Below are positions 44,701-63,488 of a DNA stretch of 64,000 bases, piece after piece. The notes under the pieces are model-generated. The model worked only from the letters and a program-made list of their open reading frames with translations. It did no database searches and was not told the DNA's origin. The position numbers and the translations under genes are program-made. The DNA comes from Pilasporangium apinafurcum (lineage: Eukaryota > Oomycota > Peronosporomycetes > Pythiales > Pythiaceae). Numbering within the stretch: position 1 is the first letter of the stretch; each line of letters begins with the position of its first letter. The stretch covers positions 53,385 to 117,384 of the forward strand of contig BCKE01000064.1 of assembly GCA_001600495.1 (NCBI GenBank). Reading direction: 5' to 3'.

Positions 44701-47700
44701 AGCTTGGCTTCGAGGCATGCCGCAAGTTGTGCATTATCTTGTACAGGTACGTAATTTCCGAAGGATGAGCTCTCATAGTCAGCATCTTCACCAGCAGTAG
44801 AGGAAGTGATACCATTCAAGAAGCCAGCACAGATCAAAGGCGTTGTAAAGAGGTCAGCTTGATCTTCTTCTAGGTGCTTTTTTGTTTGTTCAACAGCCAT
44901 TTCAGTAAACCGCTGGACTTCGCTTGATGTTGCCATTCGGTCACTGAACACGCGAAAACACTCGTGCAGCCACAACCGACAAAACAGAAGCGAATTCTTC
45001 AAATATGATTCGGGACGCGCCATTAAAAGACCTTGGAACAATGAACTCAGTTCCCGCATGCTGAAAACATAATGAAATTTTGTTGCTGTGGGCAGGAAAT
45101 TATTCCGTACATCGCAATAAAGATCAATAGATGCGGCCACAAGCGCAGGAGCAAGTTTCTTTATGCTGTCAGCGAAATTCTGCAAGTGTTGACTCAAAAG
45201 TGTCATGTAAATGGTCGTTAGATCTTGCTTCGATGGCATATTCACACACAGCGTCGAAAAATGACGTTGGAGGCGCGGATTGATTGTAAACGATCCTGCT
45301 TTGTGATTCATGCAGCTCAAAAATTGAACCTCCTGGATAGTTTTCTTCACTGTCAAATCCTGGCGGTCGTACCATGTACCATAATCCATGTGCTGTCGCA
45401 GCAAAGCGAGAGCAGTCTGCGTTCCGTATTTTTCTGGCGCAGGCATATTCAAATCATCAAGGAAGTAGACAAGCTTTCGGTTCTGCAGCGGCCCATATAC
45501 GCGTCCAGACCGTTTCTCAACGTACTGTTCCAGACGCAGTTGTAGCTGGCGAGCGTCCATGTAATGATGCATATTGACATGTGCAAACGTGAACTCATCA
45601 TCCAGATTCTTCAGATGCTCATTTGCAAGTGATGACTTTCCAGACCCACTGCAACCAACTAGGAGAACAGGGTGTGTTCGACCCAGAAATACATCCATGA
45701 GAAAATGCAGTCGGGTCGATTCAACAGTTGGCACTGTTAACGCATAAAATGGAACATCGACGATTGACATTGGTGCTGGGAGCTTATCACTCCAAAGTAC
45801 GAGCTCGTTGCGCATTATGTCGTAATGCAAATCAAACAGATTCGCTGTTGCATTTAGTAGTGATATCGCGCTATTCATGTCGGTGCCGCTACTTCCTGAG
45901 GTTGACCCTGCTGTTGAGGTTGAGAATCTGTATTTGGCAATTAATCTGAACTGAGACGAAAATATTCTGCGTTGGTCATTGGCTTTATCTCCATCAAGAG
46001 AGCCACCAAAGGCCCACAATGCACAAAAGATAAATGCATTTTCCAGCACATCTTGAGTTTTCTCTTGTTCGCTCACGAGACATAACAGACCATCAAGCAT
46101 CCGACAGAGCATTTCCACCATTGCAACAGGAACGATAGAAACGACAGACTGTAATTTTGATTCTCGAAGTATCACAAACATGGCATCAACATACTTTGAA
46201 AACAGACCGGGAAGCACCGCCGCTTCATTTGGACTATCGCGTTGTTGCACCCAAGAATCAACAAATGGGTACCACCCAATGTCGGTATCGTTCACGTATA
46301 TAATGCCAGCACGCGATACAGTCGCCGGAGTTGCATTCGCCAGAGACGATATCTCAAATATTAGTCGCATGGATTTGGATAATGGGATCCGTTCATTGGA
46401 TACTAGTGTAAGTACTTTGTTATCGTCCATCACAGTATTCATGCTTTCAATCCACACTGCATCGATGTCACCATCCAGAACCACCCACTTATACGTTTGA
46501 GACTCATGATACGGGGCAATGTCCTTCGACATGTTGCGCATTATGGAGGATAATACTCCATCTTTCCAGTCATTATCCAGAGTCATATATCCATAGAGTT
46601 CATCAACCGTGATCGCTTTGGGATTCACATTTTCAAATACCGTCACAGCTTTGCTCATATGCTCGTGAATGTCTGCATTGACTACATTATGGCACGCAGC
46701 GAGGGTGTTCCAAATCGTACTTTTACCACAACCAGCAGGACCAATAAGCATCACGCTGTGGCGAACCTTCAACACCTCATTATACTCTATGACTTTCTTG
46801 ATAAATGCTTCTTCTGGTTGTAATTTCAGCTGTGTACAAACTCTGGTACAAATATTTTTAAGGGCATTATTACTCATTCGTGGAAGCTCTTGGTTAGGAA
46901 ATAAATCGTTAAGTAACCCAAGAAAGACAGGATAATCGGTCGGAAGCATTTTCGGAGCGTTGAAATCGCGTAGTACTTGCATGAGCACGACTTCTTCGGA
47001 AAACATTGCTTTTTCTCGACGTAGAGAACCTGCGACCAGTAGTACTGATTTTACTGCACGTAATCCCCAATCATAATGCTTCTGCTTAGACAACAACTCG
47101 CTGCTGAGATCGTAAAGTGTCACGAACTTTACCGATAGTATGCGTGCCTTAAGAAAACCTTCTGCCATCAGCATGTTCTCGCAGATTGGTTGTAGGTCGG
47201 GTTTGATCATAGCGCAAGATCGGAAGAGCGCCTTAAGATTCTCTGGAAGCTCTGCACGACCGGCGTATCCCGGATTCATCGTAATGAAAAAGCCAACAGT
47301 GGGTACAAGAGCAATGGTTTTACCGAAGAAGTCACATGTACCAGTTCGGGGCATAGTTAATGGAGCAGATGATCCAGCGCCACTGTCTTGACCGCTTGAC
47401 GTTGCTGACCCATCTGTGCCTGTAGCTGATGTGGAAGCACGTTGGGTCGTTGCCATGAGCACTGAAGCATCAAGTACAGTCTTCACCTGTGTTGCCACAA
47501 CGGAAAGAACTTCCACTGAAATGCGGTTGAACTCATCAAAACAACCCCAAGCTCCTGTTTGAGCGAGTCCTCGAAAAATATCGGCCATGGTTTTATAGTT
47601 CATCTGGTCGCTACAGTTGAAAACGTAGCATTGAAGTCCCAACCCACGTGCTAGATCCTTTGTTGTCTCCGTCTTTCCTGTTCCGGCTGGACCAGCAGGT

Positions 47701-50700
47701 GCACCACCCAGACAAAGTCGCAGCGCGGTGGTCAGTGTCACATAGCAACGATCCGTGAGCGGAGTTATCACAAGGCGGCCACAGTTTCCCGTGTACTCGT
47801 AACTATAAAACGATTGGAAGTCACAGATCTTGATGTGCACTTCTTTTTTCTGTCCTGTACTCGTTGTGATGGCCGCTGTATAAAAACGCAACTGAGATTG
47901 CCACTGGAAATCAAGCGAGCTATTAACCTTCTTCGTTATCAGTGATTGCACGACATCTCGTGCATGGACATCAACAGTAATGAGCGTGATAATCTTTTGT
48001 CGATCCAGAGCTTTTAGCTCTCCTTGCACCAACTTAATGAGCTCTTCCAAACGTACTGTGGAGACGTCACCATATTTCTTGATCGCATCCTCAGTACCAT
48101 TTTCAAACTCTTCCAAAGCTGCCTCGACCTCTTCCGTCCATATAATTTGGCTACCGAGCAGTGCTACTTGGGCAGGATAATCAAATATCCATGTATGACG
48201 GGCACAATCTATTCCCCACAAGGCGCTACTCTCCACAGCATCAAAAATCTTCTGGCGCAATGTATCCTGCATCACCGTGACCAAATCATTAAACCAATTT
48301 TCCACCGTTCCGTGAATCAAATGCGAGTCCATGAACACCACCACTTCTCCCTCTTTTGAAATCATTGCCATCGCCAAGTATCTTTCTAGGACTCCAGAGG
48401 ATGAAGACGACCTAGATAATGTCCTTTTCCTCTCTCCAGAAGTAGAAGCTCCACTAGTATTTGGTTGGATGTTACTGTCCGATGCGGGGTGTACCACCTC
48501 AAAGTCAAATGACTGGATTCCGTCAAAACAATTACCAAAATGCGGCTGAATCTTTGGCGGGCAATTACCGTTCGATAATATTTCCAATAATGAGGCATTA
48601 GAAACAAAGTAGAACCGAGGGAAGACATCCTTTTTTCCATCCAAATATTGATTTAGAGCCTTTTGACACATCTCTAACTCAGCTTGAAGATCTCGTAAAA
48701 ATTGCTCTCTCCCATCTCGTTGACAGCATGCAACCAACACCGAGGGACAAAGCTGAGCATCGTGAAAGAGTTCCTTCATTTCCTCATCAACGTGCTGAAA
48801 GCGCTGGAAATCTGTAGGCAGTTGCCGTTGAAGATCCCCAGTCGAGCTGAGGAAAATGGATTCCAGGCTACACCACTGTCGTTGCAGGGCAATCCAGAGC
48901 TTCAAGATGATGTCAACATTCCCAAGCCTCAGTTGCCACTCAAAAACTTTGTCCTTGAAATAAGTCACGAATTTACCCATTCCAGCCATATTTTGTAGTT
49001 GAAGTTGATGCTCTTCTAAACACTCAATGATGGCAGTTGGAGGTTTGAGAATAAGGATATCACCAGCATCTTGCAAATCTGAAGAAAGCGACACTGTCGA
49101 ATTGCCTGACGGTTGCAAACCGGAGCCAGAGTTACGACGCACAAATTTTGACGCAGTTTGAACGCTGCCAGCGGTCTTGTATGGAACAAATTCGAGTTGA
49201 AATGCGTTCCATGATGTTTCTATAGCATGCAATTGTTGCTCGATTTTGAACTCTCGACTGGCCATTTCCACTAATTCAGTAACTTCGTTTACAAAGCGAA
49301 AGAGCTCCAGTTTTAACACTTCCTCAAACCGTAAAAGACTTTTTCCGCCAATATTAGATCCGCTTACGCTGAAGGGTCCAGATGCATGAGCAGCAATGGT
49401 AGAAGGATTGTCAGTACCCATATCGAAGTGCTTCCGTGTGAGCACCATTAAGCTCTTCCAGTGACGCTCTCTCATGACAGGAGAGTGTAAATGTTTTACT
49501 AACGGTAAAGTGACGGCCATTTGACGCAGTTTTTGTTCCAAATACTGATAAATTGGCCAATCTTTGATCACCCTTGTCGATGGAAAAAGCAAATGCCTTT
49601 GCCGTTCAATTTCATCTACCTCTTCCATCAATTGCTCGGTGTTCAACTCGTCCCAAAGCAACGGCTGCCAATTGTACACATATACTGCATCCAACATCGC
49701 CACAAGGTCCCAAAGATGCTTCAGAGTAATGAAATCTGCACGCAACCCACTTAGAAGGTCCTTTTTGCTGGAGGCAAGCTCAAACATGTCCTCTAGCTCT
49801 GCCAGTCGGGCAGCTTCCAGCTCAACTTGAACCAACTTGCCATGATATGCATCAATACTTCCATAAACATCAGCGATCGCTGGTCCAGAAGTTGGAGCAT
49901 AGATTGGTGCCGTAGTCAGGAACTCTTCTTTCATCTTGGCTAGTTGACGATGGAAATCAGCTATTTCCAATTTAACAGACTCAACCATATGGTTTTGCAG
50001 GGGCTGAATCAGTTCTTTCTTTTTAAAGGTTTTGTTCACCATATTTTCCCATCGCAAAGGTGCCTGGTCCAAAAAGGTGACGACATTTTCTTTCCCTACA
50101 TACGATAAATCGAGAGAAATGCCGTTTTGTTTTAAAACAGCGACGATCTCTTTTAATGGTGTGAAGTTGACGAGCAAATCTTCTCGCATTAAACGTCGAA
50201 CGTCACGAATATGATGCATACAATTCATAAGTCCCTGTTTTTCGAGATCAGGTTGCCGATTGTCAATTTCTTGATCGAGACCTGCATTCACGCGTTGCAT
50301 GAATGTATCCATCCACGACAATTGATTTACAACTCGATCATGAAGATACTGAGTAAACATATAAATCCACTTTGTTACCCACGTTGAAAGTGCTTGCTTG
50401 ATTGGGAGAGAATTAACCCGCACAAAGCCCACATCTTTGGCATGTTTCGACTCGGAAATCTCGTTCTGTAAGGACAAGAAGAACTGAATATTTTCTTCGA
50501 ATCGCTTCAAATTCAGAAGCTGAGCAGGCATAGGCGGAGGAGCCATGGATGAAGCAGTATTGGTGCTAAGTAACACTGGCTTTTTCGCTGCCCCAGTGGA
50601 CGAAGATGATGTAGATGTTCCTGTGGAAGAAATTTGTAGATGGTCTGAACTGACAATTGTTCCACCTGCCAGCTGCTCTGGATACGGCCTCCAAGCTGTG

Positions 50701-53700
50701 CTGAGGAACTGTAGAAACATTTGAGGTAAATCTGTCGTCCAAAGATACTCATATTTAGTCAGTTCCTGACGATAGGCAGCGCAGGCCTTTTCATTTTTAT
50801 CAAGATAACCGGAAATGTCTGCAATTAAGTGTTGGACCTGAACATTTTCCCGCAGTTCCTTCAAATAAGATCCTTCGGAGCTATCCAGTCGCTTAAAAGT
50901 TGTGGAGCACCCAAGAATGGCTTCCACGTACCGCATCACAAGATCCCGCAGACCATTTTTGGCACTTGTAGTCTGGATCGTCGGAAAATACACAATATCT
51001 TTCCCATACAAATCTAATTCAACTTCTAAGAGAGCTGAAATATCTTCGCTCTCAATTTGTTTCGGATCCAGTTGGTCTCGTAAATGCCCCAGCGATTGCA
51101 AAACAACCCGCGTTAAGCCGTCTTCAACCATTCCACTCACGTAGTCCACGTAGGCCCGCCAATCTGGACTTCCCTGGGAAACTCGCAAATATTTTAAAGT
51201 GTCTTTCAATAGACGGTGAATTTCGTTCCCACCTTCTTTGATCATATGGTACTTTTGTTGACACATTTCCCGTTGCAGCTGTTCAAATTCATCCACGGAC
51301 ATTGTTTTACTTTTCCGTTCAAAAAGTAATGGAGGTGCATTCCACGACTCTAGTAGTTCCATTACACGTGCCTGTTGCGCTTTCATTTGGCTCAGTAACG
51401 TGTTCGCCTCGTTCACATCAGTCAGTGATTCTTTCAAAAAAACGTCGATACCATGTGACTTCCAGTTTAGAGCCTTGATTCCTTTATTCAACGCCTGATC
51501 CATACGGTCCAGGTAATTCTTTACCAGTGGTTTTTCGACAGATAACAGAGTAGAATGAATAGAGTTATACATATCGACAATCAGTTCCAAATTTCCTGTC
51601 TGCCGTCGAAATACCTCTGCACGTTTGTAAATTGTTAGAGCATCTTCTGGAATCTCCAGTCCAAGCAATAAGAAGTATTTGACCTCACGGAGTAATTGGA
51701 CGAGAGCAGCGTCAAAATTTACAAAAAGAGTCCCCATCGGTGGCGAGCCAGTTGACTGTGATGTATTTGGTGGTTGTAGCTGATTTCCCTGTGGAGATGT
51801 CACAACCGATATAATCGGTAGCTCGCCGTTATTGCCTCCATTACTAACAACTTCACGACGAATCAGTGGTAACTTCAGCTTGGCGTTCGATGATGTTTCA
51901 ATGGAGACACTCCATTGTTTCACCATTTGAACTTCATACTCTTGTAACATTGCCATTACATTCGTGTACATCTTGATTGCTTCTTTTGAATCGTCACGCT
52001 CCAATACAATTCGGGGAGAAATTTGCTTTAATTTCTTCATTGGAAAGCGAATCCGCTCGGCAAGACCACGACACCACGTCACCGCACCTGCAAACGGAGG
52101 AAGATTCGGCGGTATCGGTGGCTTCTCTCGGTTCTCAACAAATATTTGTTGGACGACATGCAGATCCTCTGCGTAAGATGCAATGAGAGCAGTATGTTTG
52201 CGCTCCAATTCGTTCTTTATGATCTGCCGATCTAACAACTCTTCGAAGCAATCCAAGCATTTAAACCTCCCTGTAATTGTCTTGGCATCATCAAAAGCTT
52301 GGTTGATCACAGATGCCAAGCGGCGCTCCAGCTCTTTATTCTTGGAACGAAAGGTGTAAAAATCATCCTCAAAATGTTTCGCATCCAGGTCCATTAGATC
52401 GTAATGCACATTCTTCATTTGTGACTGTGTCTCTTGGAAATCTGCATAGATCTGATGTACACTCGCAGTCAATGTTTTGCCTTTGGTTCCGCCAATTTCC
52501 ATGGCAGCGAGTTTCCGAAATTGAGAGATTGTCTGCGTGAGCTCCAAAACATCATGACAACGCTCTAGAAATGCATCCAAACGAATAAAGAGTGCATTGT
52601 TCTGAATCCGCCAAGGGTTGCTCGGGACTTCAACCACCGATTTGGCTTTATAATCGAAATAAACGCTCTTAAAATTTGCGCATACCTGCAATGATACAGT
52701 TAGCATTGAGCTTGCTTGCTCCAGTTCTTCGTTATCGATGAGCTCAAAGAGCTTCTTCCCATTAACATACGCAGTTGCCTTACGAATGATCTCATTACAG
52801 ATCTGACGAATAAGCACAACTAATCGTGCAGGCGTGTTATAAAAACGACTGCATTTCCACACGAGTAAGATGGAGTGGCAAATCGGGCGGAATAAGTCCT
52901 TGATTTCTGGAAATTCCTCCGTGGGATGAGTCGATAACTGTTCAAACCATTTTGCCAGCGGCTGGAGGAAGTGACTATTGTCATTCGCTTCCGCACGAGC
53001 AAGGAACACTTCCTTGCATAGCTTTGCAAAGGGGACGTTGTACGTACTCTTCGATGCATCTAGACACTGCAGCACCTTGCGAATGTTATCTGACTGCAAC
53101 TGTGCAAACACAGAGTTGAGGTTCTTCGCCTTTGCCGCCCAAAACCGGAGCTCTTCCATAGGTCCTACATGCACACCCTGCTGTTTTTTGCTGAGCATCG
53201 ACTCTGGATCTTGCTTTAATATGTTTTTGATCTGCTTCGTCCACGTGATGAGACAACCTTCCAGTCCATGGACTTGGTCTTTCACGAGCACAGGAGGGGA
53301 AGAAGCAGTCACTATAGAAGATGCTGCTCCTTTGGGAGAGAGCAATGCCGATGAAGCGCTATGCTCCGTCAAGATTTGATCCCATGGTAAAGGCAAACAT
53401 GTGGCGCCATTCGTTTGCCCCACTGTGATCTGTAGACTGGAGAAGAACCCGTGAATGTTGCTGATCATTGACGTTGTGACCATCTCTGGCCACATGCGCT
53501 GGTTTCGTGGATTACCGATCAAAGGAATGTAGATCTCGCGCAGCAGCAATTCCAATGACTCGAGTGCATTTTGCTCCAATGTCCCTGTCAGAATCTCTTC
53601 GTGAAATTTATCAAAACTCACGGGTGCTTTCGTGGTTTTGATCATGTACAGCACGCAAGTGTTAGCATGCTCAAACAATCGTGGTGGTGGCACTGCGTAG

Positions 53701-53966
53701 ACCTCAATATTACCACTGTTTTCCATTCCACGGTCTGTAAAGACCAGCAATCGTGCATCACCCACGTGAAGGAAATCAAAAAGCATGGTCGCGACATTGT
53801 CAGACGCGAAGCGTTTGTTCAACTTGTCCAATTTCACCGCCGGAAACGTACGCAGCACCAACCGACGCATGAACTCAACGCGCGGGTCGTCCTTCGGTGC
53901 TCCTTGGGGCGTTGTAGAGGCAGTTGTTGTTGCTGCCATATTGTTTGATGCGCGCTCGGTCTCCAT
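38793..53966 (-). CDS. axonemal outer-arm dynein heavy chain, beta type (DNAH9/11/17-like)
   Basis: A 15,174-bp single-exon gene for 5057 residues, from the ATG at 53966. The tail (1-~1450) and linker precede a six-AAA+ motor: P-loops AAA1 GPAGTGKTE (~2092), AAA2 GPAGCGKST (~2409), AAA3 GCSGSGKSS (~2770), AAA4 GVGGSGKQS (~3128). The antiparallel coiled-coil stalk and microtubule-binding tip lie at ~3350-3660. The C-terminal domain ends with NLHIYECPVYKTQQRGPTYV. AAA1 NCSDQMNYKT and the CFDEFNRISVEVLSVVATQV block fit axonemal dyneins; overall similarity is best to beta/DNAH9-11-17. Lineage-specific low-complexity insertions occur in AAA1 (~2180), after AAA5 begins (~3725-3800) and in the C-terminal region (Gly/Ser run, ~4622-4660). 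It drives flagellar beating in zoospores. Longer than the usual ~4500 residues because of those insertions and an extended tail. Confidence 0.95.
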   Translation of the reverse strand: METERASNNMAATTTASTTPQGAPKDDPRVEFMRRLVLRTFPAVKLDKLNKRFASDNVATMLFDFLHVGDARLLVFTDRGMENSGNIEVYAVPPPRLFEHANTCVLYMIKTTKAPVSFDKFHEEILTGTLEQNALESLELLLREIYIPLIGNPRNQRMWPEMVTTSMISNIHGFFSSLQITVGQTNGATCLPLPWDQILTEHSASSALLSPKGAASSIVTASSPPVLVKDQVHGLEGCLITWTKQIKNILKQDPESMLSKKQQGVHVGPMEELRFWAAKAKNLNSVFAQLQSDNIRKVLQCLDASKSTYNVPFAKLCKEVFLARAEANDNSHFLQPLAKWFEQLSTHPTEEFPEIKDLFRPICHSILLVWKCSRFYNTPARLVVLIRQICNEIIRKATAYVNGKKLFELIDNEELEQASSMLTVSLQVCANFKSVYFDYKAKSVVEVPSNPWRIQNNALFIRLDAFLERCHDVLELTQTISQFRKLAAMEIGGTKGKTLTASVHQIYADFQETQSQMKNVHYDLMDLDAKHFEDDFYTFRSKNKELERRLASVINQAFDDAKTITGRFKCLDCFEELLDRQIIKNELERKHTALIASYAEDLHVVQQIFVENREKPPIPPNLPPFAGAVTWCRGLAERIRFPMKKLKQISPRIVLERDDSKEAIKMYTNVMAMLQEYEVQMVKQWSVSIETSSNAKLKLPLIRREVVSNGGNNGELPIISVVTSPQGNQLQPPNTSQSTGSPPMGTLFVNFDAALVQLLREVKYFLLLGLEIPEDALTIYKRAEVFRRQTGNLELIVDMYNSIHSTLLSVEKPLVKNYLDRMDQALNKGIKALNWKSHGIDVFLKESLTDVNEANTLLSQMKAQQARVMELLESWNAPPLLFERKSKTMSVDEFEQLQREMCQQKYHMIKEGGNEIHRLLKDTLKYLRVSQGSPDWRAYVDYVSGMVEDGLTRVVLQSLGHLRDQLDPKQIESEDISALLEVELDLYGKDIVYFPTIQTTSAKNGLRDLVMRYVEAILGCSTTFKRLDSSEGSYLKELRENVQVQHLIADISGYLDKNEKACAAYRQELTKYEYLWTTDLPQMFLQFLSTAWRPYPEQLAGGTIVSSDHLQISSTGTSTSSSSTGAAKKPVLLSTNTASSMAPPPMPAQLLNLKRFEENIQFFLSLQNEISESKHAKDVGFVRVNSLPIKQALSTWVTKWIYMFTQYLHDRVVNQLSWMDTFMQRVNAGLDQEIDNRQPDLEKQGLMNCMHHIRDVRRLMREDLLVNFTPLKEIVAVLKQNGISLDLSYVGKENVVTFLDQAPLRWENMVNKTFKKKELIQPLQNHMVESVKLEIADFHRQLAKMKEEFLTTAPIYAPTSGPAIADVYGSIDAYHGKLVQVELEAARLAELEDMFELASSKKDLLSGLRADFITLKHLWDLVAMLDAVYVYNWQPLLWDELNTEQLMEEVDEIERQRHLLFPSTRVIKDWPIYQYLEQKLRQMAVTLPLVKHLHSPVMRERHWKSLMVLTRKHFDMGTDNPSTIAAHASGPFSVSGSNIGGKSLLRFEEVLKLELFRFVNEVTELVEMASREFKIEQQLHAIETSWNAFQLEFVPYKTAGSVQTASKFVRRNSGSGLQPSGNSTVSLSSDLQDAGDILILKPPTAIIECLEEHQLQLQNMAGMGKFVTYFKDKVFEWQLRLGNVDIILKLWIALQRQWCSLESIFLSSTGDLQRQLPTDFQRFQHVDEEMKELFHDAQLCPSVLVACCQRDGREQFLRDLQAELEMCQKALNQYLDGKKDVFPRFYFVSNASLLEILSNGNCPPKIQPHFGNCFDGIQSFDFEVVHPASDSNIQPNTSGASTSGERKRTLSRSSSSSGVLERYLAMAMISKEGEVVVFMDSHLIHGTVENWFNDLVTVMQDTLRQKIFDAVESSALWGIDCARHTWIFDYPAQVALLGSQIIWTEEVEAALEEFENGTEDAIKKYGDVSTVRLEELIKLVQGELKALDRQKIITLITVDVHARDVVQSLITKKVNSSLDFQWQSQLRFYTAAITTSTGQKKEVHIKICDFQSFYSYEYTGNCGRLVITPLTDRCYVTLTTALRLCLGGAPAGPAGTGKTETTKDLARGLGLQCYVFNCSDQMNYKTMADIFRGLAQTGAWGCFDEFNRISVEVLSVVATQVKTVLDASVLMATTQRASTSATGTDGSATSSGQDSGAGSSAPLTMPRTGTCDFFGKTIALVPTVGFFITMNPGYAGRAELPENLKALFRSCAMIKPDLQPICENMLMAEGFLKARILSVKFVTLYDLSSELLSKQKHYDWGLRAVKSVLLVAGSLRREKAMFSEEVVLMQVLRDFNAPKMLPTDYPVFLGLLNDLFPNQELPRMSNNALKNICTRVCTQLKLQPEEAFIKKVIEYNEVLKVRHSVMLIGPAGCGKSTIWNTLAACHNVVNADIHEHMSKAVTVFENVNPKAITVDELYGYMTLDNDWKDGVLSSIMRNMSKDIAPYHESQTYKWVVLDGDIDAVWIESMNTVMDDNKVLTLVSNERIPLSKSMRLIFEISSLANATPATVSRAGIIYVNDTDIGWYPFVDSWVQQRDSPNEAAVLPGLFSKYVDAMFVILRESKLQSVVSIVPVAMVEMLCRMLDGLLCLVSEQEKTQDVLENAFIFCALWAFGGSLDGDKANDQRRIFSSQFRLIAKYRFSTSTAGSTSGSSGTDMNSAISLLNATANLFDLHYDIMRNELVLWSDKLPAPMSIVDVPFYALTVPTVESTRLHFLMDVFLGRTHPVLLVGCSGSGKSSLANEHLKNLDDEFTFAHVNMHHYMDARQLQLRLEQYVEKRSGRVYGPLQNRKLVYFLDDLNMPAPEKYGTQTALALLRQHMDYGTWYDRQDLTVKKTIQEVQFLSCMNHKAGSFTINPRLQRHFSTLCVNMPSKQDLTTIYMTLLSQHLQNFADSIKKLAPALVAASIDLYCDVRNNFLPTATKFHYVFSMRELSSLFQGLLMARPESYLKNSLLFCRLWLHECFRVFSDRMATSSEVQRFTEMAVEQTKKHLEEDQADLFTTPLICAGFLNGITSSTAGEDADYESSSFGNYVPVQDNAQLAACLEAKLKEYNENHPVMNLVLFDQALEHVTRIVRILSNPRGNALLIGVGGSGKQSLSRLAAFVCGYTLHSLSMSSSPSYGMSELKEDLKSIYRLAGVRPAKPIVLLITDSQITDDHFLVPLNDLLTSGNVAGLFSGEEMDAMTGSLRLEAKSKGIPDTKEQLQDFFYDRVRSNLHVIMAFSPVGIDFRVRCRNFPSLVSCCTMDWFHPWPKEALIDVSLEFLRDVDLSTQAIQENVCHHMAEMHLSVTNASAMYVKSYGRYNYVTPTSFLELIRFYRLLLSSKRAAQTLKIKRLEVGLATLKKTAMNVAELQDELKKTMKKVDERKRATDLLLEQMGKQRGDAELKQCRADEERAKAAKAAEIASTIEAQASVELAIAKPALDAAQQAVNCLNKASLTELKSMGKPPAGVEKVTAAVLMMLKNETKNFSWDNAKKMMAKVDVFKQQLEQYDKENIPPDIVARVEPLINEDPNFNYEKMKSKSLAAANLCVWVINIIAFHHVYVRVKPLMDTLEEAKQTKIQADVELAAVQKLVAEVEAQLNTLQKSFREATNEKAKVEAEAHACQERLSLAERLVNGLSSENNRWSHEIDALRIGENALIGDSLLAAGFVSYIGPFNASFRAQLWKHTWLPDLLTREIPISIPGNRNEGVTSTRNLGGPSPSDVGEDSGSATVLSVESTLMRNDIANDATATSLHDLESNENADSDGVVDPIDMLSNASMIAQWMNEGLPADRISIENGCIITSCERWPLLVDPQLQGIMWLRARNLQQQQEAHQLSLGIGIDASTRTEEKKTEAKEQDNSSLLILHLSQKNWMKSLKAAITNGQSVIIENLGEVVDSSLEPVLMRQVYRKGRNWFLHFAAEEIEVDPRFRLYLQTKLPNPHYRPEILAYCTLIDFSVTERGLEDQLLANVVNLEQPDLEKQKQQLQQEFNGYQIQLLHLENLLLERLSNAPDDILSDVPLVEGLEKTKLTANEVALAVVKGKETEKEINLAREVYRPVANEASMLYFLMGQLCKVNHMYRYSLESFMTFFYVAMNKVPRTASQTDSTDEVQAQSRVFLSSSSYASAFERVPVLKETLRWTMYSMVSRGLFEEHKLLFLTQLVLLLLRRGVIGANSGYNEENARFLLQGPKLVGPANTIPWLNESQWQSLQALITLEPFERFVADLEESEVRFKEWYNSPYPETEKLPLDWRDLDKSAPFLKLLVVKCMRPDRLIPAVSNFVSMTLPNGSEYLNCDSQLNSFAILKKAIKESTPWTPMYFILSPGADVVADVDKLATHDQERIKGVDYHNVALGQGQENIAMAILQRSVENGHWIILNNVHLMPRWMVELDKWLEQLSKSGKTMAHTMPTTNMSNIDESEGSGPVGRSNSIVANSGGLHPGFRLFITSDPSTNIPIGVLERSIKLTNEPPTGLKANVKRAFCCFNKTQIDELEPRTRCILFAMCYFHSLMLERKKFGTQGFNMMYPFAASDLIASSTVLKNYMENAPARVPWQDLRYLFGEIMYGGHIVNEFDRLVAATYLNYFLRDELLEELSMVPYSDESSSGGKSGNDSGGGSGGGGDSGGAAGGSGGGGGDSIGSGAHRRDFLTPKLSFGFDRILEHIDHTLVNDTPTAFGLHPNAEVAYRTEHGERLVQTILLLTKRDDDHNEEANGNKSSGENTSDSMQMVAEGVLQDILESYRDFRFDVHELFFKSSELASAASSDGGRKGGGRSASTATALAMAAAEEMDPYQNVLLQECERMNYLLSEMTTSLLELELGFRGEITLTEAMERLQECLFYDRIPPSWEKVAYPSRRSLGPWLANLQQRIDQLQEWSTQAPDLPLVVWFPGLFNPQSFLTATLQTSAQKNSLELDKLSVMTDITKRSLEMIDAPSRDGQYIHGLALEGARWDMGNGTLENSFPKEMYVLMPVLNCRAVLTTRKETSSSSTSTNLHIYECPVYKTQQRGPTYVFTAQLRTKALPSKWILAGVALLLEVV
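39985..40080 (-). repeat. Gly/Ser-coding low-complexity insertion in the dynein gene
   Basis: Imperfect GGY/AGY codon repeat (GGGSGGGGDSGGAAGGSGGG) within the dynein C-terminal domain. Probably a flexible surface loop. Confidence 0.85.
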
Positions 53967-56378: not shown

Positions 56379-57293
56379 TCATCCGGTAATTTCCGCAGAG
56401 GAAATACGCTCTTGCTCGGCCTGGCTACTCTGTTGATGCTTCTTCTGTTGCGACTTCGCTCCGCAACTAGAACATTGGCAGTTTGAACAGCCGCACTTTT
56501 CCGATTTCTGCCCACAGCCCGTGCATTTAGACTTTTTGTCACCGCAGCTAGTACATTGACAGTTCGAACAGCTGCATTTATCGGATTTCTCTCCGCAGCT
56601 CGTACACTCGGACTTTTTGCCACCACAGCTGGTGCATTTGCAATCACCCTTGCAAGTACAGGTCTTGCACTCGCAGTTGTTGCAGTGGCAGGAGCATTTG
56701 CAATCCTTCGTCTCACAGTGGCAAGTGCATCCACAATTCTTACCGCTGAGCTTCTCGGCGCTGCAACGCTTTAAATGTGCCATTTCGATCGCCGACTGCG
56801 CCAGTTCAATACCGTGGTTGCATTTCTTGTTGCTCGTACCACACGTACCCGTAGAGGTAGCACATGACTTGGCTTGACCCTCGTCCGTGCAAGTAAGCAG
56901 CCCATACACCACGGGAGTCTCCGTCTTGACGTTGAGCTTCATCAACCCCATCGTCACGGCTTCACTCACGAACTCGTATGCCATAGTCGCGCCTTTGATC
57001 ATGCAGCCAAGGGCAATCACAGCATCAATCTGGTCTTTCTTAACTTGAATCACGCGGCCAGCGGCGAATGGGAGCTCAAACGCGCCTGGGACTTCGATTT
57101 GCGTGATATCTTCACGACTCACGCCACGGTCAAGCAATTCCTTCTTCGTGGATTCAACCAGCGGATGTAGAACCGATTCAGCATACCAACGCGTCGACAC
57201 GATGGCAATCTTCATCCCACGGCCATCCTTGTGGCTGAATGTGCATTTCTTGCATGGACCGTGGCCTCCCACTTGTTCCTCAACAATGTTCAT
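56379..57293 (-). CDS. lumazine-synthase-fold protein with metallothionein-like Cys-rich tail (copy A)
   Basis: 304 residues, single exon, ATG at 57293. An N-terminal CxxC (Cys14, Cys17) precedes a complete lumazine synthase (RibH/Rib4) domain at ~27-175: IAIVSTRWY, VPGAFELPFAAG, ALGCMIKGATMAYEF and the C-terminal helix AQSAIEMAHL. Family enzymes join the ribityl-pyrimidine to dihydroxybutanone phosphate and have a conserved His in TMHFEY/TTHYDY; here that site is Ala105. The usual phosphate-binding Arg appears replaced by Cys144. From Cys177 on, a tail of ~105 residues holds 30 Cys as CxC and CxxC motifs plus Lys/Ser/Gly, as in metallothioneins, with no aromatic residues. The tail includes a 27-residue tandem duplication. 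It probably oligomerises through the lumazine-synthase fold and binds metal through the tail (inference). Catalysis is doubtful. Confidence 0.85.
   Translation of the reverse strand: MNIVEEQVGGHGPCKKCTFSHKDGRGMKIAIVSTRWYAESVLHPLVESTKKELLDRGVSREDITQIEVPGAFELPFAAGRVIQVKKDQIDAVIALGCMIKGATMAYEFVSEAVTMGLMKLNVKTETPVVYGLLTCTDEGQAKSCATSTGTCGTSNKKCNHGIELAQSAIEMAHLKRCSAEKLSGKNCGCTCHCETKDCKCSCHCNNCECKTCTCKGDCKCTSCGGKKSECTSCGEKSDKCSCSNCQCTSCGDKKSKCTGCGQKSEKCGCSNCQCSSCGAKSQQKKHQQSSQAEQERISSAEITG
56475..56636 (-). repeat. 81-bp tandem duplication in the Cys-rich tail of copy A
   Basis: Two units, 56636-56556 and 56555-56475, each coding 27 residues of the form CTSCGxKKS..CTxCGxKS followed by a CxCSNCQ block; a third partial unit starts at 56474 (CSSCGAK). 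The two units differ at about five residues. Confidence 0.85.
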
Positions 57294-57743
57294 TTTGTCT
57301 GCGCGCCCAACTACTGTTGCTCAAGTTGTCAGTTTGATAAATGAGATGGTTTTAGTTTGGAGTACGCAAAAAACGGAATGCGACTAACCGTCACATTAGT
57401 TGAAGAACCCGTTAAAGAAGGGAAGAAGAGCTAAGATGGGAATGAGAGACTAACTAACGGTCGCATGTGAGGATATGACAGTTGAAGCGACCGTGTCCAT
57501 ATCTGTGACATGTATGAGATAACCACGAGTAAATAGAATGTAGCATCAGCCACATTTTGTCATTTCCTGGAGAATTTGAGTTCGATATAACCAACAAAAT
57601 AAACCGACATGTCCTATTGCATTTCATTCTGTGTGATCCAGAAAACCCATATCTATTGCCTCAAAATCATGATCTTTAGTTTCACAAAATAAAAATGCAA
57701 CTTTTCGAAAACGCACACGGATTCTTCGTCACCTCTCCAGGAT
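57294..57743. other. spacer between copies A and B
   Basis: 450 bp between two same-strand genes, AT-rich toward the left gene. Expected to hold the promoter of copy A and the 3' UTR of copy B. Confidence 0.4.
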
Positions 57744-58490
57744 TCACTTGTTGCTAGTTTCTTTGCATTCACACGATTCGCAGTGATACTCGTGTTTCCG
57801 GTGCGTCGGGATCATTGACGCTGGGACAGCGGTTGATGGCAGAATGTTGACAATCCTTTCGCCAATGTCAGACGCGAGGCTGTGCTGCTCTTGTTTCTCT
57901 TCACCACTTCCATCACCATGGCAACCACACACACAACTCGCCATCATCTCTATATGCATGTCCTGGTTGAACTGGCCTATTTGGATGGCTGTTTGTGCCC
58001 ATTTGACGCCATAACCGTGATGGCGCGTCTTGCCCTCAGTCAGTCCAGCACAAGCGCGAGCTTGTATGTCATCCAGACAGACCAGTACGCCATTAATCAC
58101 GGGTGTGTGGGTCATCGCTCCAATTTTCAAAATCGCTCGGGTTACAGCTTCAGCAATGAACTCAAATGACATAATCTTGCCCTTAACTAGACAACCGATG
58201 CACACAACCGCGTCCAACTTCTCGTGCACAGCAGCTGCTCGAATTAACCGCTTTGTGGCATACGGAAGTTCAAATGGCAGAGAGACTTGCAGTTCGTGGA
58301 CATGGTCACGCTTGACGCCCTTAAGCAATAGTTCACCTCGACATGCGTCGACCAACGCATGCACAATGTCGGAACTTTGACTAGTGTAGACGATACCGAC
58401 ATGTAACCTAGAACCATCAAGCTTAGATGAAAAATGCATGCCTGGGGGCTCTAGAAACGCAGGATGGGTGACCTCTTTGCGACTCGCCAT
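57744..58490 (-). CDS. lumazine-synthase-fold protein with reduced Cys clusters (copy B)
   Basis: 248 residues from the ATG at 58490. The lumazine synthase domain spans ~28-178: LHVGIVYTSQS, LQVSLPFELPYA, VVCIGCLVKGKIMSFEF, INGVLVCLDDIQARACAGL and GVKWAQTAIQI. The active-site His is Ser108 and the Arg position is Cys147. The substrate-stacking Arg-Trp pair of fungal enzymes is also lost (SQSS instead of ARW). The tail has only small clusters, CVCGC at 186-190 and CESCEC near the end, so metal capacity is much lower than in copy A. It is closest to copy B' (61407-62234) by the shared LPFELPYA, MSFE and CAGLT blocks. Probably not a functional riboflavin enzyme; it may co-assemble with the other copies. 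Confidence 0.82.
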   Translation of the reverse strand: MASRKEVTHPAFLEPPGMHFSSKLDGSRLHVGIVYTSQSSDIVHALVDACRGELLLKGVKRDHVHELQVSLPFELPYATKRLIRAAAVHEKLDAVVCIGCLVKGKIMSFEFIAEAVTRAILKIGAMTHTPVINGVLVCLDDIQARACAGLTEGKTRHHGYGVKWAQTAIQIGQFNQDMHIEMMASCVCGCHGDGSGEEKQEQHSLASDIGERIVNILPSTAVPASMIPTHRKHEYHCESCECKETSNK

Positions 58491-58970
58491 TTTGGCTGGA
58501 TAATAATTTCGTTGTTGGGTTTCGTTTGAGCCGCAGATAGCGAAATGAGTATTGGGCAAGCTTGCGAAAGTAAATATCTGTAGCAGTCACAAGATAAATA
58601 ATACCAAGGCACCTTTCTCATCCTGAGAGTGATGAGGCCGTTGGCATGCGTTAACATGTTGGGCAAGCAAGTGAAAATGCTGTCGCTAACGGTTGAAGCT
58701 GTAAAGTGCATCATCTCACGAGCCCTGTCAACTCGAACTCGTCTCTGTCTGATCCATTGTCGCGATCGAAAAGTGTGCTCAGACAGACCTACCAGATCTT
58801 GTATTGTTTTCATTGAAGCTTCGTACAGCAGAGAAAAACAAATGCAGAATACATTTTTAAGGTCTGAGACCGGGATTGAGATTTGACTCACAGCTCCTCC
58901 TGCTCATGCTATATTAGCAAAACAGCAAAGCTCAGAACGAATACTAATGGGCTTAAAATGCTAATTCTTC

Positions 58971-59850
58971 TCAATCAGTCGCCAGGAACTTGACACCGTC
59001 TTCTTCGCACGTTTCCCCAGCAATAATCGCTGCCTACAGACAAGAAAACAACAATAGGAGAGAAAAATGTCAATCATCTCTATCAGTCATCATATATCGC
59101 TTGATCTTCGGTCACTTGCTTTTCCTTCGTCTTCTAGCACTTGCAACGCCTCACGCAGCAACCACGGCTCCATGCCATGAATATCTACAGCATTCATCAT
59201 CGAGAGACACTCAGTTCAGTCACTGTCAACAACAATGTAAACATCACTGCATACTTACTAGAGCCCAGGGTTTCTTCTCCTGCATATAGTTCATAAACCG
59301 TGAAAACATTCCCCAGCATTCCATGCTCCTTCGCCTGTAATAGTTCACACCTTCCTGTCAGTACACTCACCCATTAGAGTACGACAAATCACTCTTCACA
59401 TACGAAATCGTAGATCTCAACGGCCCACTCGGCAGGTTTTTTCCACATAATACGACATCGCATGTGCGTCTCATCCTCCCAGCTACCATTACCGCAACGG
59501 ATGAGATATTCGACAACAGCCAGCCGTCCTTCATGAGCCATTTTACGCGAGATTTTCACGTTTTCAAACAGCGATGACGTGAATGGCTGGAAGATTGGCT
59601 GGGCATGTGTGCGATGGTATTCTAAAATGAGCTGCTTCCAGAGCACAAGCTGCTTCTCACGTGTGGCACGCACCGGTTGCAATCTAGTAGCACGATGAGT
59701 AGATCAGGTCTTTCATCATGTTTCATGCCAAGTTTACGTAGCTGTCCAATAAAAAACGCTGGAAGATGGCGGTATGGGCTCAGGAACGTACGTAAAGAAT
59801 GGAGGGAAGTCGTAGTACTCTGGGTAGGCGAATTTGTCCACCGCCGCCAT
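58971..59850 (-). CDS. VPS25: ESCRT-II subunit VPS25
   Basis: Five exons join in frame to 180 residues (human VPS25 has 176): 59850-59792, 59683-59404, 59334-59259, 59184-59120, 59033-58971. The N-terminal YYDFPPFFTLQP contains the PPFF/PPxY-type motif that contacts VPS22/VPS36, then RATREKQLVLWKQLI, SLFENVKISRK, IMWKKPAEWAVEIYDF, VFTVYELYAGEE and IHGMEPWLLREALQVLEDEG, ending DGVKFLATD. These are the two winged-helix domains. Introns 1-3 are GT-AG. Intron 4 (59119-59034) begins GCAAGT and ends CTGTAG, a GC-AG intron supported by the exact match of the joined residues to the family C-terminus. Role: endosomal sorting of ubiquitinated cargo, bridging to ESCRT-III. It sits inside the lumazine-synthase cluster, with no functional link known. 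Confidence 0.92.
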
Positions 59851-61406
59851 CGCACAAGAGTTGAGCAGGTGGATGTTTCTTTGTCAATGTGCTTCTTCGT
59901 ATTCACTCTCTATCATGCTATAACCTCTTGGTGCTAGAACTGCTAATTAGCACACAATAGAATGGATATGAAGAATTTTGTTAATTTAGCATATTGGGTT
60001 GAAATAACATCCAACCACAATAGGATGAAATAGTGTGGCTGTATCCACCAACATTTGGAAGCTGAGCGACCAATCTCAGAGTGTTACTGTTGCTCATTTC
60101 GTCACCATTTTCTTGTGTGTGTTGCTCCTCATCCTAGAGAACACGCATTGACAATCTTTTCAAGCATGTGCTAAACAAAAAGAAGAGTGGTATTGATTTA
60201 TTGTCACCGACGACCGTGACTGAGTCAGTGGTGATGTTATTGTACAATGTCAAAGTACCATAGAAAAGCATTCATATTGGAATAGCTGGGGCTGATTGAT
60301 ATAATTGTTTTCGATATCATTTACACACGTTCGACGCGAGTTATTCATCCTCGCGTTTCAGCGCTTCCTGTCATTATGAATATCGACGATTGTAACGTGT
60401 GCGCAAGCAAAGGATGTCGTTTCTTGTTAGTGCTATCACTACATCTCACGAAATTTTTAAAGAGGCTAGCAACATCGCACATGCCTACCTATCAGTATGC
60501 GGGCATTTCAAGGAGCGTCCCAGCCACGTTGACGAAGAACAAGTACAGCAAGATGAAAGAAGACCTCTGCTCGATTTTTGAGATGTTCCCATGAACCGGA
60601 TGTGCTCAATCTGCAGAACCGATCATCATCGTCATAGAAACTACCCCTCGAACTTGAAATGCTTATGGCGAGGTTGAGGACGATCCCGATTCTTGCACGT
60701 GTGATCGCTACCTCTTATTCATGGTGGTGATATTTCATCAGAGACTGGATCTAACCAGCAAGTCCAACAAAGGAGTCATTAAGGAATGGTAGCAGCTTCA
60801 AGACGATGTCGAGAAGCTGGTTGCCAAGCTGTGAAAGGAGGTGGCGGACAGGATCGTTTTGCTCATCTCCGACCAAGCGGCACAGCCATTGGTGATGCTG
60901 GCGTACGAAGCCACATTCATGAAGATATGCTCTCGACAGAACATCAAGAGTTCATCACATTCATCTTTGACAGAGTTGTCGTTGGACGTAAAAGTGGCCT
61001 TCCAGATAGCTATACACAGCTTGGCGAAGAACAACTTCTCGCCTAGCAAATGCTGTTGGTGAGTATGGGACGGTTGGGAAGGGTGTTTATGTATTTAGCA
61101 TTCATTGCTCATTGTATTTCCGTGCATGCATAGTAACCAGGAAAGATACCGTCATAAGAATATACGACGCACACACTTGGCCCCGTTAGCATGTCTTGTC
61201 TCATTCTCTTGTGTAGTAAGCACAGAAGCCACCCCAATCTATGCGCATATGGAACTCCAACGGCGAGAACACACAGACTGGGACAAGGATATGCCATTTT
61301 TTGCCCAACACGCTGATGCTGCGTGGGGTCATTTCGTAATTTGCAGAGGCACACAAACGTCACAAGGCCAAGATCAAGCATACATAAGCAAATTTAAGCA
61401 ACGGAA
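59851..61406. other. 1.5-kb region between VPS25 and copy B'
   Basis: Apart from the possible decayed coding sequence at 60376-61046, listed separately, nothing is recognised. Contains the promoters of VPS25 and copy B'. Confidence 0.4.
60376..61046 (+). pseudogene. possible decayed coding sequence, family unknown
   Basis: Short plus-strand frames broken by stops give helical-looking stretches such as HEIFKEASNIAHAYLSVC and LQDDVEKLVAKL, then a stop and KEVADRIVLLISDQAAQP. A CxxC...H...C group (CSICRTDHHRHRNYPSNLKC) near 60600 looks like a zinc knuckle. No family could be named and frames change several times. It may be an old gene or transposon fragment, or chance. Confidence 0.25.
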
Positions 61407-62234
61407 ATGGCAACTCTCGCGCCTGCAGAAAAGACTGTGCTAGTAGAGCCGCCAGGAGTAGTGGCCTCGTCGAAAACTGATGGAGCAGGGCTGCACGTAG
61501 GTTTGGTGTTCACACGGCAATGCGCCGAGATCGTCGATGCGCTAATGAGCTCGTGTCGAGCCGAGCTACTGCTTAAGGGTGTTGCACGCTCACATCTCCA
61601 TGAGCTACAGGTATCGCTGCCATTTGAATTGCCGTACGCGGTCAAGCGCCTAATTCAGACAGCTCCTCCGAATGAAAAACTGGACGCGGTAGTTTGTATT
61701 GGCTGCCTGGTGAAGGGCAAAACGATGTCGTTCGAGCAGATTGGGGAAGCTGTGACGCGTGGAGTCATGAAGGTCGGCATGATGACTAAAACACCCGTGA
61801 TTAATGGCGTGTTGACCTGCGAGAACGAAGCCCAAGCCAAGGAATGTGCGGGTTTAACCAAAAGCAAGGTGCTCTCGCACGGTTTTGGCGTGGAATGGGC
61901 GCAGTCAGTAATTACAATGGGCAAATTCAACCGCAAGGCGCAAGAGAAATTAGCGGCAAATTGCAAATGCCACTGTCATTGCGTGGCGGATTGTGCGTGT
62001 AGTTGTGGCTGCACAAAATGCCAGGATTCGGCGGAAGGCTGTAACTGTAAGGACTGCATTTGTTCCAAGTGTAAGAAGCAAACGACGACTGGTTTGAGTG
62101 GAAAGGAGAAGCAGGAGACTGGCGAGCAGCAACAGGGACAACAGCAGCACCAGGGCGAGGAGAAGCAGAGCTTTGCGGCGAGTGTAAAGGAAAAGATTGT
62201 TGGGATGGTTACCACCAAACAACAGCAAGAATAG
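61407..62234 (+). CDS. lumazine-synthase-fold protein with Cys-rich tail (copy B')
   Basis: 275 residues from the ATG at 61407, single exon. Lumazine synthase domain ~28-178 with LHVGLVFTRQC, LQVSLPFELPYAVKRLI, VVCIGCLVKGKTMSFEQIGE, INGVLTCENEAQAKECAGL and GVEWAQSVITMG. The His position is Ser108 and the Arg position Cys147, as in copy B. Residues 186-222 contain 14 Cys, mostly CxC with two His (CKCHCHC... CNCKDCICSKC), a metallothionein-like cluster. This is followed by a Gln/Glu/Lys-rich linker (EQQQGQQQHQGEEKQ) and a short amphipathic C-terminus (SFAASVKEKIVGMVTTK) that also has a counterpart in copy B. Likely role as for copy A: an oligomeric carrier of metal-binding tails (inference). 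It diverges from VPS25. Confidence 0.85.
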   Translation: MATLAPAEKTVLVEPPGVVASSKTDGAGLHVGLVFTRQCAEIVDALMSSCRAELLLKGVARSHLHELQVSLPFELPYAVKRLIQTAPPNEKLDAVVCIGCLVKGKTMSFEQIGEAVTRGVMKVGMMTKTPVINGVLTCENEAQAKECAGLTKSKVLSHGFGVEWAQSVITMGKFNRKAQEKLAANCKCHCHCVADCACSCGCTKCQDSAEGCNCKDCICSKCKKQTTTGLSGKEKQETGEQQQGQQQHQGEEKQSFAASVKEKIVGMVTTKQQQE

Positions 62235-62790
62235 TAACCATGCAAAGGGATGTAATGCGAGAAATGTGGTTGCAAGTCAGGACATCGTCGGATCAAGAGT
62301 GGAGCTAACGATGATGCCGGACAGACAAAGATGGTGATTAGTATAACCTGCATTTTTACCTTAGTAAGGAGGCAAGTGAGCAATGTATGTTGTCGTGTGA
62401 TTGTACGGGTTTGCTAACGAGAAAGGATGGACTACAAAGCGTCGTTGGCAAACATTGTGGATGTTGACTTTAGTTCTGATTATGTCTGATAGCTTTAAGT
62501 AGTACTACCTGATTTGACTTGTAAAGACGTAATCGATCATAAAAATGCCCCACTTCCACCATTGCGGTTTTTTTCATGTTCGATCCAACCATTATTCTGT
62601 AGCTCCTCTCTTTCACGATGGAGAGAAGAGAAGGAGATGAAGTTCCATCACTCACTTCCACTTGACAGTTGGGTAAGGCTACTTTTCTCCCCTTTAACAC
62701 CGCTAACTCGCTCAGATTCAACATCAAACCTCATTTAACAACATCTGTCGATCTACTTAGTCACCAAAGGGCAACAACTAAACCCGTGCT
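62235..62790. other. spacer upstream of copy A'
   Basis: No gene. Contains the place where the first exon or start of copy A' should lie, but no in-frame ATG with similarity to copy A was found. Confidence 0.35.
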
Positions 62791-62799
62791 CGCTGTTGA

Positions 62800-63488
62800 T
62801 TCCGGCACATCCACTCCGACCTGCAAAGCCCGATATATCATTGGGCACGGTCTGAACATCGCCATTGTCTACGCGCGTTGGTATGAGCAAGACATTCTTC
62901 ACCCGCTGGTCGTTAACTGCAAACGAGAGCTGCTCGCGAAAGGCGTGTTGGCAGGTTATATCCTCGAAGTAGAAGTCGCTGGCGCCTACGAGTTGGTGTT
63001 TGCCGCAGAATATGTTATCGCCACCAAACGAGACCAAGTGGATGCGGTTATTTGCATTGGTTACATGATCAAAGGCAAAACGATGGCATACGAGTTTATC
63101 TGTGAGGCAGTGACCATGGGGCTCATGAAACTTAACGTTCAGCAAGACACGTCCTGTCGTGAACGGTTTATTGACGTGTGTAAGTGAATGACAAACTAAA
63201 GTCTATGTAGAAGCCAAGCACAGTTGCGATGCCAGCACGCAGAAATGCAATCACGACGTCGAGCTAGCACAGTCGGCAATCGAATTGGCGAATTTGAAGC
63301 GCTGTACTGCTATCAAAATCCCCCGATTCCATCAATGCACATGTGTCTGTCATTGTGACACGGCTGACTGTAAGTGTTCACGCCATCGTGGCAAGTGTGG
63401 TTGTCGCATTTGTGCCTGCAAAGGTAAATGCCAGTGTGGGTGCTGTGAGGAGAAGCAGTGGTGTCAAAAAGTGCGGTGTATGGTCTGA
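62800..63488 (+). pseudogene. lumazine-synthase/Cys-tail pseudogene (copy A')
   Basis: The sequence follows copy A: NIAIVYARWYEQ, VEVAGAYELVFAAE, VICIGYMIKGKTMAYEF (Ala at the His position, as in copy A) and EAVTMGLMKLNV. Near 63147 a 1-nt change shifts the frame; beyond it PVVNGLLTC continues in the new frame, then an in-frame TGA (63187-63189) stands where copy A has Gly139. After that KCNHDVELAQSAIELANLKR and a 16-Cys tail (CTCVCHCDTADCKC..., ending at a TGA at 63486-63488) continue to the expected end. No ATG is present upstream in the first frame. Tail and domain are otherwise well preserved, so the decay is recent. Confidence is good that the reading frame is broken, unless sequencing errors are responsible. 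Confidence 0.78.

Follow-up and report, generated by a model that had tools for sequence, protein, structure and literature searches.

Lumazine synthase (RibH; Pfam family PF00885) is an essential, ring-forming biosynthetic enzyme, while metallothioneins are small, stand-alone proteins, rich in cysteine, dense in CxC motifs, poor in aromatic residues and of low AlphaFold2 confidence. Passages of PMC7369331 describe lumazine synthases from a number of bacteria and archaea as 60-mers and the fungal ones as possible pentamers or decamers, state that the N- and C-termini of the protein face outward and accept fusions, and present engineered display particles in which peptides, oligohistidine tags included, are carried on the C-terminus of the scaffold. 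One described case of duplication is BsfB, a self-resistance duplicate that stands as a second RibH beside the normal one and keeps Phe22, His88 and Arg127, the residues that PMC12871164 names as important in catalysis. Here we describe a locus in the oomycete Pilasporangium apinafurcum that shares features with all of these, a cluster of four neighbouring RibH-like copies (A, B, B' and A') with C-terminal cysteine-containing tails, at positions 56379-63488 of the 64,000-nucleotide stretch of DNA analysed (the window). We consider it about an even prospect that these copies are retired lumazine synthases acting as ring-scaffolded, metallothionein-like buffers of cytosolic metal.

A profile search of the genome (36.5 Mb in 136 contigs, the window being part of contig C64) with PF00885 returned six matching places: a canonical copy on contig C3, the four copies in the window and a degenerate one on contig C25. 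Copy A (56379-57293, minus strand) is an intact, single-exon open reading frame (ORF) of 304 amino acids, with the domain at approximately 56769-57218 (E = 1e-40); copy B (57744-58490, minus strand) is an intact single-exon ORF of 248 amino acids, with the domain at approximately 57975-58406 (E = 5e-31); and copy B' (61407-62234, plus strand) is an intact single-exon ORF of 275 amino acids, with the domain at approximately 61491-61928 (E = 3e-35). Each of the three contains the whole Pfam domain, while the match to A' spans profile positions 2-97 of 139 only. Against TIGR00114, whose NCBIfam equivalog cut-off is 84.6 bits, A scores 110.5, B' 93.3 and B 79.7.

The case for retirement from catalysis comes from an alignment of 80 bacterial RibHs with five of the organism's own copies (A, B, B', C3 and C25), with A' aligned separately against A. 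The bacterial sequences are the best 80, all examined, from at least 592 prokaryote stretches matched, 540 of which are relatives, and they are mostly Bacteroidota, picked by likeness to the C3 copy. The labels His88, Arg127, Trp27 and Phe113 were placed by motif and not by alignment of the Bacillus subtilis protein, whose numbering we take them to follow. The His88 position is occupied by His, and the Arg127 position by Arg, in 80 of 80 bacterial proteins, and both residues are kept in the C3 copy. The corresponding pairs are Ala and Cys in A, Ser and Cys in both B and B', Leu and Val in C25 and, from its pieces, Ala and Tyr in A'. At the Phe113 position, Phe in 80/80 bacteria, A has Tyr and both B and B' have Asn; at the Trp27 position, Trp in 80/80, A retains the Trp, and Gln stands in its place in both B and B'. 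Since A, B, B' and, as far as its pieces tell, A' have lost both the His and the Arg at these positions, the cluster copies are, judged from their residues, pseudoenzymes retired from lumazine synthesis. They have the domain, and A and B' also the predicted fold, in common with RibH but not the catalytic His and Arg equivalents, and in this they also differ from BsfB, which retains these residues. The initial annotation, which had proposed a repurposed protein, gains from this loss.

A pseudoenzyme of this ancestry might still serve flavin metabolism, either by binding riboflavin or lumazine or by mixing with the canonical RibH to tune riboflavin synthesis, the Cys-containing tail acting as a redox sensor. 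We regard this as quite unlikely, though copy A retains, besides the Trp27 position, the VPGAFELP and GAT motifs, and though family ancestry and the presence of a canonical RibH available for mixed rings speak in its favour. B and B' have lost the substrate-loop PG along with the Trp, which makes it improbable that these two bind a ligand, even though their domains are constrained.

The C3 copy (locus L001:1303-2088), being canonical at both catalytic positions, is presumably the working lumazine synthase of this genome, in which a match for DHBP synthase and matches for riboflavin synthase, the latter containing stop codons that are assumed to reflect introns, are found elsewhere. At its C-terminus, the hydrophobic segment TWLHIATISALGFAATALA, with a hydropathy averaging 1.4, precedes KKFSH and may represent a tail anchor. 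The C25 copy (L006:1420-2109) is a highly diverged RibH-like protein with neither the catalytic His and Arg nor a Cys-rich tail, and it sits on a very long branch. In a tree built from half of the bacterial set (40 sequences) and the same five own copies, which thus covers bacteria and this one eukaryote, the own copies share one side of a branch (support 99/75). C3 is closest to the bacteria, and the other four, A, B, B' and C25, lie past it (99/87); the program flagged the long branches of C25 and A, so the branching order within is uncertain.

The tails set the cluster proteins apart from ordinary lumazine synthases. The tail of A (56382-56765, minus strand) contains 30 Cys in 128 residues, arranged as 13 CxC and 9 CxxC, which is far more than chance would give, as 2000 first-order Markov resamples average 7.3 Cys and never exceed 16. 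The tail of B' (61932-62231, plus strand, within the B' ORF) contains 14 Cys in 100 residues, and the reduced tail of B 6 in 73, so that ORF translations bear out the counts of 30, 14 and about 6 originally given for A, B' and B. High Cys content with CxC and CxxC clusters is thus a feature of the A and B' tails, in which aromatic residues are also almost absent; these two tails resemble metallothioneins in both respects, and yet they are fused, in a single ORF, to a ring-forming RibH domain. CxCxCHC motifs recur in three of the tails (A, A' and B') and CxCxCH in that of B, which points to a single ancestral tail behind all four. Past the Cys part, B and B' have a C-terminal segment in common. 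No hydrophobic stretch is present in the tail of A, and by eye nothing resembling a signal peptide is seen at the N-terminus of copy A; a segment at the C-terminus of B is mildly hydrophobic, averaging 0.96.

The domains have remained under purifying selection despite lost catalysis, as nonsynonymous divergence (dN) is low against near-saturated or saturated synonymous divergence (dS). Between the domains of B and B', dN is 0.24 and dS 4.9, near saturation (pS 0.75); between A and A', dN is 0.33 and dS 3.4 over the first piece of A', and dN is 0.37 with dS saturated over the second. In the alignment of the A and A' tails, Cys is preferentially retained, at 14 of 16 positions compared to 15 of 41 for other residues (Fisher p = 0.0005). 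In the second piece of A', which covers the domain end and the tail, 10 of the 16 Cys codons shared with A differ as TGC versus TGT, and this retention through silent changes argues for selection having acted on cysteine and not on DNA. These values bear on the possibility that the cluster consists of functionless, decaying duplicates whose tails are repeat expansions free of selection. The broken state of A', the 81-base tandem repeat in the tail of A (2.2 copies, 56461-56638) and the fast divergence of the B and B' tails would fit such decay, but with both the domain constraint and the Cys retention opposing it we consider it extremely unlikely.

Copy A' itself, on the plus strand, is in two open pieces. 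The first (62702-63184), with most of the RibH domain, lies in a frame open from 62666 with no in-frame ATG ahead of the domain; the second (63192-63488, including the stop), in another frame and with an in-frame stop just ahead of it, encodes the domain end and a shortened Cys-rich tail with 19 Cys in 98 amino acids. The expectation of four neighbouring genes with a complete domain therefore holds for A, B and B' and fails for A', which has two frames, an in-frame stop and no start codon. An intron in place of damage was set aside by inspection, as both pieces follow A collinearly and a homologous stretch is itself interrupted by the stop. With dN low and dS at or near saturation in its pieces, A' would seem to have been under constraint for most of its life and to have been broken late, or else sequence or assembly errors may explain its state.

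As to structure, AlphaFold2 predictions for A and B' give a confident RibH domain (pLDDT of at least 90 in 137 of 304 residues of A and in 146 of 275 of B') and low-confidence tails, a further likeness to metallothioneins, with a helix at residues 279-300 of A; the low confidence is taken as predicted disorder in the absence of metal. In Foldseek searches with these two models, the target-normalised TM values range from 0.80 to 0.92 among the 50 matches listed, and the top matches are mostly fungal lumazine synthases (1c41, 2jfb, 4kq6, 1kz9), with icosahedral enzymes close behind (in the search with A, that of B. subtilis is in 11th place). A short loop after Arg127, of the GxxGNKG type, is tied to icosahedral 60-mer assembly. 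Between the Arg127 position and the closing Gly, 77 of the 80 bacterial proteins count 9 residues and the other 3 count 8, compared to 11 for C3, 14 for each of B and B' and 17 for A, and thus none of these four has the short loop of the icosahedral enzymes. The lengthened loop is shared with the fungal lumazine synthases, of which 1c41 is titled pentameric and the Candida and Schizosaccharomyces pombe enzymes are, we assume, pentamers as well; compared to these, the cluster copies carry additional tails, which are 73-128 residues long and, in A and B', rich in Cys. With the loop lengthened and the best fold matches mostly fungal, a pentamer is likely to be the form of the cluster proteins in preference to a 60-subunit cage. 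The cage put forward in the initial annotation, a 60-subunit shell bearing metal-binding tails, therefore gives way to a ring of five, and we rate it as very unlikely, even with the icosahedral enzymes so near in the fold search and with 60-mers formed by bacterial and archaeal members of the family, according to a passage of PMC7369331. The loop alone is not decisive, because, as described in the same source, the yeast loop, once thought to block capsids, gave a larger capsid and not the expected pentamers when placed in the Aquifex enzyme.

The following scenario would connect these observations. An ancestral duplicate of the genome's RibH would have lost catalysis through changes at His88 and Arg127 and acquired a Cys-rich extension at its C-terminus, starting with a motif of the CxCxCH(C) type; the tailed pseudoenzyme would then have duplicated into the A and B types, and the A-B block would next have been copied in inverted orientation, giving the present palindrome of A (-), B (-), a VPS25-like exon, B' (+) and A' (+). 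We infer the order and dates of these duplications, both pairs being near-saturated or saturated at synonymous sites. The proteins would still fold and assemble as pentamers of the lumazine synthase type, with unstructured tails projecting outward and folding around soft metal ions, for which zinc, copper(I) and cadmium would be the usual candidates. Pentamer formation is probable, and tail display, metal binding and cytosolic metal buffering are inferred, the display because lumazine synthase termini point outward, as stated in a passage of PMC7369331. Compared to the engineered particles of that source, which likewise have peptides on the C-terminus of the scaffold, the arrangement would be natural, eukaryotic and placed on a copy predicted to be catalytically dead. 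An extension of the proposal, which we hold as doubtful, is that a five-fold ring of A presents up to 150 tail thiols, that A, B and B' mix to set the thiol content, and that the vacated, Cys-bearing active site provides a second, interface metal site, the last because the Arg127 position is Cys in the three intact copies and two further Cys lie in the neighbouring loop of A.

A number of observations weigh against metal buffering of this kind. None of the three tails tested matches a Pfam metallothionein model at E up to 10, the only Pfam match for them being to a sestrin model (E = 0.34, for B'), and in the PDB the tail of A finds weak zinc-ribbon-like matches only (E = 0.08 and 0.34) and no metallothionein; there are also no CC pairs in this tail. 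With just 6 tail Cys left in B, strong metal storage cannot be a property of all copies. Thus the RibH fold with a metallothionein-like tail proposed at the outset stands for A and B', and it does not extend to the much reduced tail of B or to membership in a Pfam metallothionein family. The tails of B and B' diverge fast, with dN of 0.57 over 49 codons, and so evolve faster than the domains. The Fisher test of Cys retention between the tails of A and A' rests on an alignment that still rewarded Cys-Cys pairs (the reward lowered from 9 to 4), and A' is a broken copy. Within the 450 bases upstream, A, B and B' do not share any word of at least 8 bases, and the one core near the start of A and the one word near the start of B, which we take to be an animal-type metal-response core and a yeast Ace1-like motif, respectively, are within chance. 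Finally, two phytochelatin synthase-like genes are present (C28:222479-223252 and C17:577019-577791, each matched in three stretches), and the organism thus probably has a second thiol-based metal route.

Part of this evidence would suit tails of another kind, zinc knuckles or protein-interaction segments that bind a few structural zinc ions and dock partners; the dead RibH ring would then act as a hub, and metal storage would not be the function. The weak zinc-ribbon matches, the CxxCG knuckle-like repeats in the tail of A and the C-terminal segment common to B and B' agree with this, but the 13 CxC of tail A look more like thiolate clusters than spaced knuckles, and the Cys number ranges from 6 to 30 among intact copies, leaving this explanation unlikely in our assessment.

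Searches for relatives place the metal-buffer proposal in context. The stand-alone metallothionein families PF00131, PF12749 and PF01439 have no match in this genome, and control genomes are also silent, so that their absence is not established, while GenBank records of metallothioneins for Phytophthora (three) and Peronospora (two) are listed in PMC7216689. A search of the genome with the tail of A returned only A and A' and missed the tail of B', and is thus insensitive. The CxCxCHC pattern has 32 sites in the genome and its reversed control 10. The cluster accounts for 4 of the former, 2 of these in A, and among 20 of the remaining 28 that were inspected 6 are without in-frame open reading and 14 are in frames of no more than 87 amino acids containing 4-11 Cys. 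The Cys-rich tail is present in none of the best 80 bacterial RibHs, the range to which the prokaryote survey extended, and a scan of viral contigs with the five-copy alignment gave 18 pattern matches, with no relative among them. Literature searches found neither a fusion of RibH with a metallothionein nor a study of an oomycete lumazine synthase; one paper with both terms, PMC8306872, on cadmium in durum wheat, names lumazine synthase and metallothionein once each. The earlier remark that no family of this architecture has been described agrees with these results, and such a family may sit unremarked in public proteomes.

The surroundings of the cluster can be described briefly. Between the arms of the palindrome, and outside the RibH system, is the VPS25-like (ESCRT-II) exon (59392-59703, minus strand; PF05871, E = 9e-24), and from this gene to B', at 60286-61094 of the window, only short frames are found, four of which were searched against Pfam and remained without a match at E up to 0.1. 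An uninterrupted reading frame of 5057 amino acids at 38793-53966 of the window (minus strand) is a candidate dynein heavy chain, named from sequence. Across the genome elicitin has 50 matches, with none in 14 prokaryote controls, a gene content that fits an oomycete, and nine elicitin-like matches, all on the minus strand, lie inside 18 kb at C54:155469-173362.

If the proposed reading is true, an essential ring-forming biosynthetic enzyme was duplicated, stripped of catalysis and reused as the scaffold for a disordered metal-binding tail, and the fusion of peptides to lumazine synthase, as done by engineers, was apparently also reached here by evolution. Copper is a long-used control agent against oomycetes, and the cluster would provide a candidate thiol-based metal buffer for these organisms. 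It would also offer a clean test case for whether display on a ring alters the way in which a metallothionein works.

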